A DNA stretch of 35,966 bases from Actinomycetota bacterium (lineage in GTDB: Bacteria > Actinomycetota > Aquicultoria > Aquicultorales > Aquicultoraceae), in contig JACUUO010000013.1 of assembly GCA_014859275.1 (NCBI GenBank), forward strand, positions 1 to 35,966, written 5' to 3'. Both the position numbers and the translations under genes were made by a program. The stretch's first letter is position 1, and the number at the start of each line of letters is the position of its first letter. Positions 12,518 to 21,851 of the stretch are shown here, in pieces. The notes beneath the pieces were generated by a model. That model saw only the letters and a list, made by a program, of their open reading frames with translations. It ran no database searches and was not told where the DNA came from.

Positions 12518-13824
<1,307 letters not shown>

Positions 13825-18141: not shown

Positions 18142-18214
18142 AGCGGGCAACGAGACTCGAACTCGCGACCCTCAGCTTGGGAAGCTGATGCTCTACCAAC
18201 TGAGCTATGCCCGC
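18142..18214 (-). tRNA. tRNA-Gly(CCC)
   Basis: 73 bases with a full cloverleaf: acceptor GCGGGCA/TGCCCGC, D-arm GCTC...GAGC, anticodon stem TCAGC/GCTGA around loop TTCCCAA (anticodon CCC), T-arm GCGAG-TTCGAGT-CTCGT. The discriminator base is U, as usual for glycine. CCA is not encoded (CAA follows). Its 3' end is duplicated 213 bp downstream. Confidence 0.96.
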
Positions 18215-18323: not shown

Positions 18324-18352
18324 ATTATACCTGATTTACACATCCCTGTTAA
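18324..18352 (-). promoter_or_regulatory. Promoter for tRNA-Gly
   Basis: On the minus strand: TTAACA (18352-18347), a 17-base spacer and a perfect TATAAT (18329-18324). It overlaps the stop codon of the OB-fold-like gene and points at the tRNA, whose 5' end is about 103 bases beyond the expected start. The leader (18215-18317) is rich in related words such as GGTTTCTGG and contains a GAGGGCC/GGCCCTC hairpin. Confidence 0.65.
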
Positions 18353-18843
18353 GAAGCAGCGGTAAAATGCTTCTTCTGGTAGCGGTTTGCTAGAAGCAGA
18401 GTGATGGCCATCGACAAGAGGATCGCTGCGGCAATCGCTTTTCTCCTATCTATTGGATGCTCCACCTGACTTCCGGCCACAACAACGGTTATGCTTTCGG
18501 CATGTATATCGAGCTCCCCGGCATGCTCGCTGCATGCCTGATTGAAAATGCCTTCAACCAGAACCGTGTCTCCGATGTGGTTATAGTCACCGGCAAATTT
18601 TATTTTACGAAGTTCCGCTACTGGAGCCCACACGCCAATGGCATCGCCCCCATCATGGACATTTACCCAGCCGTACTCGCCTCGCTCCATAATGTCGCCT
18701 ATAGCTTCTCCTTGAAAGGAAATCCTCTTGCCATCATATTTTTTGGAGTCCTCAATCAGCTCGGTGCTTGATACCAACGCGTAAGCGGGTGACGCCAGGA
18801 AAGATATAATTATGACTATTAGCAAGACAGTGGCTTTACGCAT
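18349..18843 (-). CDS. Exported OB-fold-like protein with C-terminal membrane anchor
   Basis: A 164-aa protein. It has a signal peptide (basic start, hydrophobic core, cleavage after AYA near residue 22), a beta-rich domain at about 25-125 that reads like an OB fold (YDGKRISFQGEAIGDIM, GWVNVHDGGDAIGVW, HIGDTVLVEGIF), and one C-terminal membrane helix (about 135-154) with a basic tail. The role is unknown; the domain pattern is seen in small exported proteins. Its ATG overlaps the trkH stop (TAATG), so it is the last gene of the Trk operon and is translationally coupled to trkH. A link to potassium uptake is only a context inference. Confidence 0.7.
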   Translation of the reverse strand: MRKATVLLIVIIISFLASPAYALVSSTELIEDSKKYDGKRISFQGEAIGDIMERGEYGWVNVHDGGDAIGVWAPVAELRKIKFAGDYNHIGDTVLVEGIFNQACSEHAGELDIHAESITVVVAGSQVEHPIDRRKAIAAAILLSMAITLLLANRYQKKHFTAAS

Positions 18844-20345
18844 TACTTACCCCTCACCGAAGATATTATAAAGCCAATAAGGGCTACTATTGATATAAAC
18901 TCAAGGCGCGCAGCCCACATCTGGATCATGTAGACTATTTTAAGCGCACTTGGAGCATCTACAAGCGGAATTCTTGAGGATATGCCGTTATTTGCTCCGG
19001 CGGAAATCGATTGAAATAGAGAATCGATAAATGAATACCCGTAGAAAGTACCGGCAATAGCAGCGATAATATAGGAGGCGACATAGGCAAATCCTATTAT
19101 AAATGCGTTCAGCAATAACTTTTCGGTAATGACGTTTTTCTTCAAGTGATGATACTTTTCAACGATCACCGATGACGGGGGTAAAAGCATCCTTTTTATC
19201 TCTAAACTGAAAGCCTTAAATATTATCATCAAGCGATGCATCTTTATTCCACCAGCCGTTGAGCCGATGCTGGCACCAAGGCCCATGGCAACCATCATGC
19301 CAAATAAGCCAAGCGGCCCCCAGAGGTCGGGAATCTGTGAACTATAAACGGTCGTAAAACCGGTGCTGGTGAGCGCCGATATCTGCTGGTAAAAACCCCG
19401 TCTGAAAACAGAAAACGTCTCGTTGTATATGCCAATCTGCGATAGGGCAACAGCGGCAATAGCAAAAGTTGTGCATATGGCCGCAGACATGGTCAATAAC
19501 TCGGCATTCTTGTATATCTCACGCCTATTGCCCGAAAAAAGCGCATAGTAAACCGCAAAGTTAATAGCGCCGGCAATCATAAAAGGCATCATGGCAAATT
19601 CATAGGTGGCGCTATGGTAGTAGATAACGCTTTGAGATTGGGGCGAGAAGCCACCGGTGTTAAAACCAGATACAAAAATAGTTATGGCATGAAATAAGGA
19701 TCTGAGGGGAGGTATTCCTATCTGCCAACCCACCAACCACAGCGTGGTCACTCCCAGACCAAGATATATGAGAGTTACCGATACTATAAAGCGCGTGGTC
19801 TGAAATAAATTCGGCAGAATCTTTTCCTCGCGCGCCTCGCCAACATACATTCCATAGATGCCCGATGCCCCACCAGTCATAAGGGTAAGCATAACGACGA
19901 CAATTCCTTGCCCACCTATGAACATGGTTAGGTGCCGCCAGAAATTGTGCCCGTAAGAGAGATGATCGAGATCCTGGATAAGGGTAAGACCGGTTGCCGT
20001 AAAACCGCTCATGGCGTCGAACATCGCGTCAAGAAATGAAAGGAAGTGCCCACTTAAATAAAGCGGTATTGCACCGAAGAGCATTGCAGCCAGCCATGCA
20101 ACTGGCACCACTAAAATACCGTGCATCCAGCTCATCTCTTTCTTGTTTGAACAAGTAATTGATAAAAGATAGCCCGCAGAAAAAGCGATGCTTGAACCGA
20201 TGACAAAATCAATCACCGGTCCCCACTCACGATTGAAAAGAGATATTGCTAGCGGCAGGAGCATGGCAAATCCGATGCCGAGGATGAGTTTCCCTGTATA
20301 AAAGCCGATTATTTTAAGATCTATAAGCCTTGGCCTGAGGAACAC
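18843..20345 (-). CDS. trkH: TrkH potassium uptake channel subunit
   Basis: A 500-aa TrkH/KtrB-type integral membrane protein with about ten to twelve hydrophobic segments. The four half-conserved selectivity loops can be seen (MSGFTATGLT near 111, VSGFNTGGFS near 229, LTSTGFTTVYS near 328, and a diverged SAGANNGISS near 446); each has the filter glycine. It forms the pore for K+ entry and is gated by TrkA. It starts at GTG (20345) right after the stop of a 43-aa gene; GAGGTGG lies 8 bases upstream inside that gene. The operon runs trkA-trkA-small ORF-trkH-OB protein. Confidence 0.95.
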   Translation of the reverse strand: MFLRPRLIDLKIIGFYTGKLILGIGFAMLLPLAISLFNREWGPVIDFVIGSSIAFSAGYLLSITCSNKKEMSWMHGILVVPVAWLAAMLFGAIPLYLSGHFLSFLDAMFDAMSGFTATGLTLIQDLDHLSYGHNFWRHLTMFIGGQGIVVVMLTLMTGGASGIYGMYVGEAREEKILPNLFQTTRFIVSVTLIYLGLGVTTLWLVGWQIGIPPLRSLFHAITIFVSGFNTGGFSPQSQSVIYYHSATYEFAMMPFMIAGAINFAVYYALFSGNRREIYKNAELLTMSAAICTTFAIAAVALSQIGIYNETFSVFRRGFYQQISALTSTGFTTVYSSQIPDLWGPLGLFGMMVAMGLGASIGSTAGGIKMHRLMIIFKAFSLEIKRMLLPPSSVIVEKYHHLKKNVITEKLLLNAFIIGFAYVASYIIAAIAGTFYGYSFIDSLFQSISAGANNGISSRIPLVDAPSALKIVYMIQMWAARLEFISIVALIGFIISSVRGK

Positions 20346-20477
20346 CTAAAACCACCTCAAAGCCAAAACACTGATCATGAAGGCTATAACAATAAGAACA
20401 ATGGCATATAGCAATGCGGTTCCTACGCCGGTAGCATGCCGTAGAACCTGCTTACCTATATCCCTTTTACTAGGCAT
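20346..20477 (-). CDS. 43-aa single-pass membrane protein between trkA and trkH
   Basis: A short gene: ATG 20477 to TAG 20346. AGAGGTAGAG stands just upstream, partly inside the end of trkA. The start lies 5 bases after the trkA stop codon, and trkH begins at the base after its own stop, so it is tightly packed in the operon. The protein has a basic N-terminal 15 residues (PSKRDIGKQVLRH), one hydrophobic helix at about 18-40 (ALLYAIVLIVIAFMISVL) and a short ALRWF end. Size and form recall small subunits such as KdpF. I know of no described Trk small subunit; the role is inference from position. Confidence 0.7.
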   Translation of the reverse strand: MPSKRDIGKQVLRHATGVGTALLYAIVLIVIAFMISVLALRWF

Positions 20478-20482
20478 CAGCT

Positions 20483-21145
20483 CTACCTCTCTCCAGCCAA
20501 TATATCTCTAAGAGCCTGCTCTTTATCGGGGGTAGTAACGGCGATCACCGCATCGCCTGCCTGGATGATGGTATTTCCTCTTGGGATTATTACTTCTTCA
20601 CCCCGGATAATGGAGACCAGGACGATCTCTCTCGGAAGCTTAAGATCGGCGAGCTTTTCCCCATCTATTGGCACATCGCTGGGGAGATCCATCTCCACTA
20701 AAACCAGATTCCCCTTCTTTAACGCCTGGAGAGTAATGATATCGCCGATTGTCGCTTCTTCCTCGATGAGCCTGGTAATGATAGTCGTGCTTGACAGGGC
20801 ATTTATGCCGAGCGCATGGAAAATGCGCTCATTTCTGGGATCATTTACCCTGGCAACAGCCTTTGGGATATTAAATCCTTCCGTTGCAAGTTGACACATG
20901 ACCAGGTTATCGTCATCGTCGCCTGTAACTGCAGCAAGGACATCGGCGCGCTCTGCTCCTGCCTCCTCCATATACCTTACATCACAAGCATCGCCGTTGA
21001 TAACAAGTACATCCTCGCTATCTTCAGCTATCCTTGCACATTTATCGGGATTCTTTTCAAGAATGACGACGGTGTGGCTCCTTTTTGTCAGTTTTCTCGC
21101 AAGTGACGCACCGACCTTGCCGCCACCGCCAATTATGATGTACAT
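20483..21145 (-). CDS. trkA: TrkA family potassium regulator (first copy, next to trkH)
   Basis: A 220-aa RCK protein: TrkA_N with the NAD-binding motif GGGGKVGASLARKL (residues 6-19), the acidic residue at the end of beta 2 (ILEKN), and VLAAVTGDDDDNL. TrkA_C follows (about 135-215; ALKKGNLVLVEMDLP ... GDAVIAVTTPD). It binds the cytosolic face of TrkH and gates it. ATG with GGAGAAA upstream. It follows the second trkA by 13 bases. Confidence 0.93.
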   Translation of the reverse strand: MYIIIGGGGKVGASLARKLTKRSHTVVILEKNPDKCARIAEDSEDVLVINGDACDVRYMEEAGAERADVLAAVTGDDDDNLVMCQLATEGFNIPKAVARVNDPRNERIFHALGINALSSTTIITRLIEEEATIGDIITLQALKKGNLVLVEMDLPSDVPIDGEKLADLKLPREIVLVSIIRGEEVIIPRGNTIIQAGDAVIAVTTPDKEQALRDILAGER

Positions 21146-21158
21146 GAGATTTTCTCCG

Positions 21159-21851
21159 TTAACTTCCGATTGGGGAGGAAAGTCCGTTTCTCGCCTTCAT
21201 ATCGATTTCCACATCGAAGAGCCTAGCTACCTTTTCCATAGCATCGACGCTTACCGCCGCAATTATCGTATCGCCCACAGCAATCCTGGTATCCGCCGAA
21301 ACGATCACGCTTTTTTCGCCTCTGGTTATCACCGCTGGTCTAAATTGATTTGGGATTTCGATATCAGCTACCTTTTTACCGGCAAGCTTCGGCGTCGCTT
21401 TAATCTCAACAATCTGCGAATTACAGTCTAGGTTTATCTCGGATACAAACTCTCGCCCCAGCACCCAATCGCGTATTTTGTGCGCAACCAAGGTTGTACC
21501 GCAGACCGTATCCAACCCTAATTTATGATATGTCCTTTCACGATCGGGATAGTATACTCTTGATACTACCTTGGGCACATCATATAATTTCTTGGCTACC
21601 TGACCGGCCATAATGTTTGCGTTATCTAGGTTGGTCACCGCCACGAACACGTCGGCTTCTGTAATGCCCGCTTTCTCAAGAACCCGCTCGTCAAAGCCGT
21701 TTCCTACGATAGTTAGGCCATTGAAGCTTGTCCCCAACCGGCGGAATGAACTACTACTGGCATCAATGACAACCACATTATGCCCATCGTTTGAGAGCAT
21801 CGTTGCAAGCTGGGCGCCTACACGTCCGCATCCGCCTATAATAATGTACAC
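21159..21851 (-). CDS. TrkA family potassium regulator (second copy)
   Basis: A 230-aa RCK protein with GGCGRVGAQLATML (residues 6-19), VVVIDAS and VFVAVTNLDNANIM in TrkA_N, and TrkA_C at about 140-220. It differs clearly from its neighbour, so the pair is probably a heteromeric gating ring made by old duplication rather than a recent copy; E. coli has both halves in one chain. The start is GTG with GGAGGCGAG upstream. It is the first gene of the Trk operon. The 136 bases before it hold no riboswitch I can recognise. Confidence 0.92.
   Translation of the reverse strand: MYIIIGGCGRVGAQLATMLSNDGHNVVVIDASSSSFRRLGTSFNGLTIVGNGFDERVLEKAGITEADVFVAVTNLDNANIMAGQVAKKLYDVPKVVSRVYYPDRERTYHKLGLDTVCGTTLVAHKIRDWVLGREFVSEINLDCNSQIVEIKATPKLAGKKVADIEIPNQFRPAVITRGEKSVIVSADTRIAVGDTIIAAVSVDAMEKVARLFDVEIDMKARNGLSSPIGS

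Follow-up and report, generated by a model that had tools for sequence, protein, structure and literature searches.

Trk is one of the textbook systems for bacterial K+ uptake, and descriptions of it comprise only TrkH and TrkA. Kdp, in the same superfamily, has a tiny single-helix subunit, KdpF, about 29 aa long compared with 43 aa for the protein studied here. KdpF spans the membrane once, and its gene lies immediately ahead of that for a K+ channel-like subunit (KdpA, related to TrkH); it has been suggested to act as a stabiliser or structural chaperone of its complex (PMC12629597). The only solved TrkH structure related to the TrkH studied here (E about 1e-27) is that of Vibrio parahaemolyticus TrkH-TrkA (PDB 4J9U, 6V4J-L), a system with one two-domain TrkA and no reported small subunit. 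When the Vibrio complex gates, its intramembrane loop and dimer interface shift under the control of the TrkA ring (PMC6987127). A further related system is Thermotoga maritima TM1088A/TM1088B-TM1089 (PDB 3L4B), in which two separate single-RCK TrkA genes accompany a TrkH, a type characterised by a hetero-octameric A4B4 gating ring. Homologues have been noted in Actinobacteria, and the paper that notes them cites complementation assays in which both TM1088 and TM1089 were required for survival in low potassium, with no mention of a third small protein (PMC4380455).

The 35,966-nt stretch of DNA analysed here (the window) carries on its minus strand an operon in the order trkA1, trkA2, ORF43, trkH, orf164. 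The two TrkA genes, trkA1 (21159..21851) and trkA2 (20483..21145), each encode a single-RCK protein with one TrkA_N and one TrkA_C domain (PF02254 and PF02080). As a gating-ring subunit, TrkA2 resembles TM1088B (E 2.8e-31) more closely than TM1088A (E 2.1e-16), and TrkA1 has the TrkA_C domain that TM1088A lacks. The K+ channel/transporter subunit is encoded by trkH (18843..20345; PF02386, E 3.9e-44), and orf164 follows at 18349..18843. A tRNA gene (18142-18214, minus strand; Rfam RF00005, 71.8 bits) lies just downstream of the operon and was the only RNA element in the Rfam scan of the locus. Elsewhere in the window, on the plus strand, a 191-aa frame at 12954-13529 contains the DKTGT and TGD motifs of P-type ATPases; it is far shorter than a full pump and looks like a gene remnant.

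ORF43 (20346..20477, minus strand), a candidate gene for a small single-span membrane subunit of TrkH, starts with an ATG at 20477 and comprises 43 codons followed by a TAG at 20348-20346; its product is MPSKRDIGKQVLRHATGVGTALLYAIVLIVIAFMISVLALRWF. The trkA2 stop codon (20485-20483) is located 5 nt upstream of the ATG, and a Shine-Dalgarno sequence, AGAGAGG, is present 8 nt ahead of it within the last codons of trkA2 (about 20486-20492). The GTG of trkH, at 20345, directly abuts the ORF43 TAG, and the Shine-Dalgarno sequence of trkH, GAGGTGG (20352..20358), lies within the final ORF43 codons (L-R-W). A preliminary description had reported, without naming the strand, a complete short gene with its own ribosome site, 5 bases after the trkA stop and touching the trkH start; its coordinates, both junctions and its remaining details were right.

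Coding character and anatomy of ORF43

The preliminary description had called for a conserved short frame between trkA and trkH in relatives and for substitutions that respect codon position. Such a frame is present: seven family genomes have an ungapped ORF43 homologue at this position, and its end is 0 or 3 nt from trkH. Coding tests were performed on these seven members (the window genome and six relatives) over 40 aligned codons. Synonymous divergence exceeded nonsynonymous divergence in 21 of 21 pairs, which are not independent, with pS of 0.56-0.88 against pN of 0.23-0.42; the closely related G008 and G010 alone fall outside these ranges (pS 0.17, pN 0.06). Summed substitutions at codon positions 1, 2 and 3 numbered 297, 271 and 484, so that changes do respect codon position. 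The true frame had a BLOSUM score of 1943 and no stops, compared with a mean of 684 (sd 175, maximum 1220; z = 7.2) over 2000 column shuffles, none of which was stop-free. The other five frames scored between 208 and 1298 and each contained stops (3 to 26). The excess of pS over pN in all pairs, together with the frame scores and stops, shows that ORF43 is a real gene, with purifying selection acting on the protein and synonymous sites close to saturation.

Members of the family are mostly 40-55 aa long and share a common layout, with a basic N-terminal stretch, a Gly near the helix start, one predicted helix and a very short tail. The net charge on the N-side is +1 or more in 91% of members. 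A basic N-terminus and a single membrane helix had already been read from ORF43 itself. By the positive-inside rule the predicted topology is N-in, the basic N-terminus being cytoplasmic and the chain crossing the membrane once to end just outside. The Gly is near-invariant across the family and invariant in A1; it is Gly17 in the window copy. In 50 of 82 members the Gly opens a GxxxE motif whose Glu lies at the cytoplasmic helix end; the other 32 lack this Glu, among them the window copy, which has Ala (GVGTA). The Gly and the Glu probably mark a contact face. In the window's family the C-terminal RW[FY] overlaps the trkH Shine-Dalgarno sequence, and its conservation is therefore not purely protein-level. 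AlphaFold modelling of a read-through ORF43-TrkH chain, in which the TAG was read as Gln as a modelling device only, yielded a helix at residues 4-39 with pLDDT of 41-52 and no confident placement on TrkH.

Distribution of the small ORF among TrkH copies

A profile built from 26 members was searched against 296 whole genomes with a cut-off of E < 1e-4. At all 38 significant places, many of them profile members by construction and one situated at a contig end (G167:C78), a trkH follows directly; no significant off-target place was found in the 296 genomes. Five weak matches (E 0.003-0.007) fell inside long frames of 232-1191 aa and are attributed to chance. In Pfam and NCBIfam, ORF43 and 25 homologues had scattered single matches only (best E 0.0048), none common to the members, and among PDB sequences the profile retrieved nothing but rhodopsin helices at E 0.5 and a single weaker match. 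A paper describing a small Trk protein was likewise not found in the open-access literature, so this absence is weak evidence.

A TrkH match was found in 27 of the 36 genomes of the class, and the ORF precedes the main trkH at every locus of the class with a readable trkH start and upstream DNA. The survey was extended to the phylum by fetching 60 further stretches, and a tree of 135 TrkH proteins was computed with FastTree; its branches are long and its inner details unsure, and the Vibrio sequence itself lies outside it. The tree consists of two clades split by a fully supported branch. Within the window's clade, which spans the phylum and one Treponema-labelled genome, a one-helix ORF of about 37-75 aa directly precedes trkH in 82 of 97 distinct copies, a tally made after removal of duplicates and correction by hand (L094_4248 and L102_4219 became absent, the end of orf164 having been mistaken for the small ORF; L127, L128, L131, L029 and L030 became present). 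In the other clade, which comes from the phylum of the Treponema-labelled genome and from loci of the window's phylum and whose usual neighbour is a two-domain TrkA, none of the 33 scored copies has one. The presence label changes 10 times on the tree, compared with a mean of 41 after shuffling. Members, ORF43 among them, are single-span, roughly 37-75 aa long and end within about 85 nt of the trkH start. The profile detects only about half of them at significant E-values, and the most divergent ones are taken as ORF43 homologues from their position, length and hydropathy and from the Gly.

The small ORF is absent from 15 of the 97 copies: eight are additional trkH genes in genomes whose main trkH has the ORF, six belong to family f27, and one is L061. 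As the last seven are not extras, TrkH can work without the small protein. Several loci bear traces of rearrangement. In G025 and G014 (L029 and L030) the small ORF is separated from the intact trkH by a 5' fragment of trkH, a remnant of tandem duplication. In G012 (L037/L051) the second trkH carries its own diverged small ORF upstream; a probable frameshift has divided this trkH into two frames that overlap (G012:C4, 5015-6091 and 6082-6513). The Treponema-labelled genome (L022; DPXI01000088.1) has the entire trkA-trkA-small ORF-trkH-orf164 operon; sampled members of its labelled phylum have only the other kind of TrkH, and this locus may represent a transfer or a mislabelled bin.

In the tree the window's own TrkH groups as sister with the second TrkH of G003, which has no small ORF. 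It deviates at near-invariant positions of the clade: Ala117 replaces Thr and Arg458 replaces Gly, both in or near the filter loops, and Tyr266 replaces His. Its closest relative, the second TrkH of G003, shares Arg458 and Tyr266, so that some of the deviant positions mark the paralogue. A tandem pair of trkH genes may plausibly have lost its first member, which left the small gene before the second. A TrkH change compensating the window's Glu-to-Ala substitution was sought among otherwise conserved TrkH positions; several differ, none convincingly.

Junctions between the small ORF and trkH are tight: the spacing is between -3 and +4 nt in 50 of 79, and in 25 the two genes overlap by exactly 4 nt. 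We considered that the ORF might be a misannotated N-terminal extension of TrkH; this was ruled out because the frame relation between the two differs among loci. On the upstream side, trkA directly precedes the small ORF in 57 of the 79 loci, and the remaining 22 have no adjacent upstream trkA. That the ORF precedes trkH in these 22 loci as well, and that the second G012 trkH has its own copy, gives good support to TrkH rather than TrkA as the partner. The preliminary suggestion of a small stabilising or gating subunit of TrkH is thus borne out in its association with TrkH; the subunit part is carried forward here as a likely reading. Taken together, sequence, position and distribution show that the ORF43 family consists of undescribed short single-span proteins dedicated to a single TrkH clade as its partners.

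Proposed role and alternative explanations

ORF43 most likely works like KdpF, by analogy of size, topology and gene position and with no homology detectable at the sensitivity tested. Pfam gave no match to PF09604 (KdpF) for any of 26 family members at E 0.1, and at E 0.001 this profile was without a match in the genome of the window, although it matches E. coli and three other control genomes. The settings also differ: KdpFABC is a P-type ATPase complex, whereas the neighbours of ORF43 are trkA2 and trkH, not kdpA, kdpB or kdpC. We regard it as likely that ORF43 encodes a dedicated partner of its TrkH clade that acts as a small accessory subunit packing against TrkH. By this account the small N-in helix would pack against TrkH in the membrane, as KdpF does on KdpFABC, and would aid assembly, cohesion or gating of the TrkH dimer together with the two-gene TrkA ring. 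Tight stop/start coupling would give roughly equal synthesis with TrkH, and a helix whose conserved residues lie at the cytoplasmic end would be in a position to act on the intramembrane loop or the dimer interface.

The same tight junctions could mean that the ORF is a leader that carries ribosomes from trkA2 onto trkH or to the membrane, its product having no function of its own. Stop/start overlaps are indeed frequent, and since the trkH Shine-Dalgarno sequence is located in the last ORF codons, the C-terminal RW may partly reflect that constraint. However, amino acids are conserved over the whole frame while synonymous sites are saturated, the Gly and the Glu are far from the Shine-Dalgarno sequence, and the ORF is kept both where trkA is not adjacent and where 35-80 nt separate it from trkH (L053, L055, L113, L114 and L116); we therefore consider a pure coupling role unlikely. 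Assignment to TrkA or to the product of orf164 would fit the frequent trkA neighbour upstream and the presence of orf164 after trkH in most loci, but it is very hard to reconcile with the loci that have no adjacent upstream trkA, where trkH always follows, and with the retention of orf164 in the ORF-less loci L063, L070, L072, L073 and L085.

Some other bacterial small membrane proteins assist the folding of their targets or tune their turnover. A protein that is single-span, dedicated to TrkH and made just before it could likewise be a membrane insertion or quality-control helper, aiding TrkH folding or tuning its turnover, and not a stoichiometric subunit. These features are the very data on which the accessory-subunit reading rests, and they fit both readings; we hold the helper role to be improbable.

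orf164 and the composition of Trk

In the window's TrkH clade, orf164 follows trkH in most loci. Its AlphaFold model (mean pLDDT 96) comprises an N-terminal signal helix, a five-stranded OB fold and a C-terminal membrane helix; Foldseek matches were to the OB domains of class II tRNA synthetases, and no Pfam or NCBIfam family was found. The product is a possible outward-facing component of Trk. With this second uncharacterised gene after trkH, the trk operons may encode a five-part system. We propose, tentatively, that one major branch of bacterial Trk could have five components, TrkA1-TrkA2-small subunit-TrkH-OB protein, in which the helix and the outward-facing OB domain would be regular TrkH subunits. 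Such a system would have been overlooked because routine annotation passes over genes as short as the small one and because orf164 has no family model.

If the small protein, whose gene sits beside trkH across most of a phylum, is indeed a subunit, studies of one large branch of Trk would so far have missed a component. The protein would then also offer, beside KdpF in the same superfamily, a compact case for how a one-helix protein tunes a channel.
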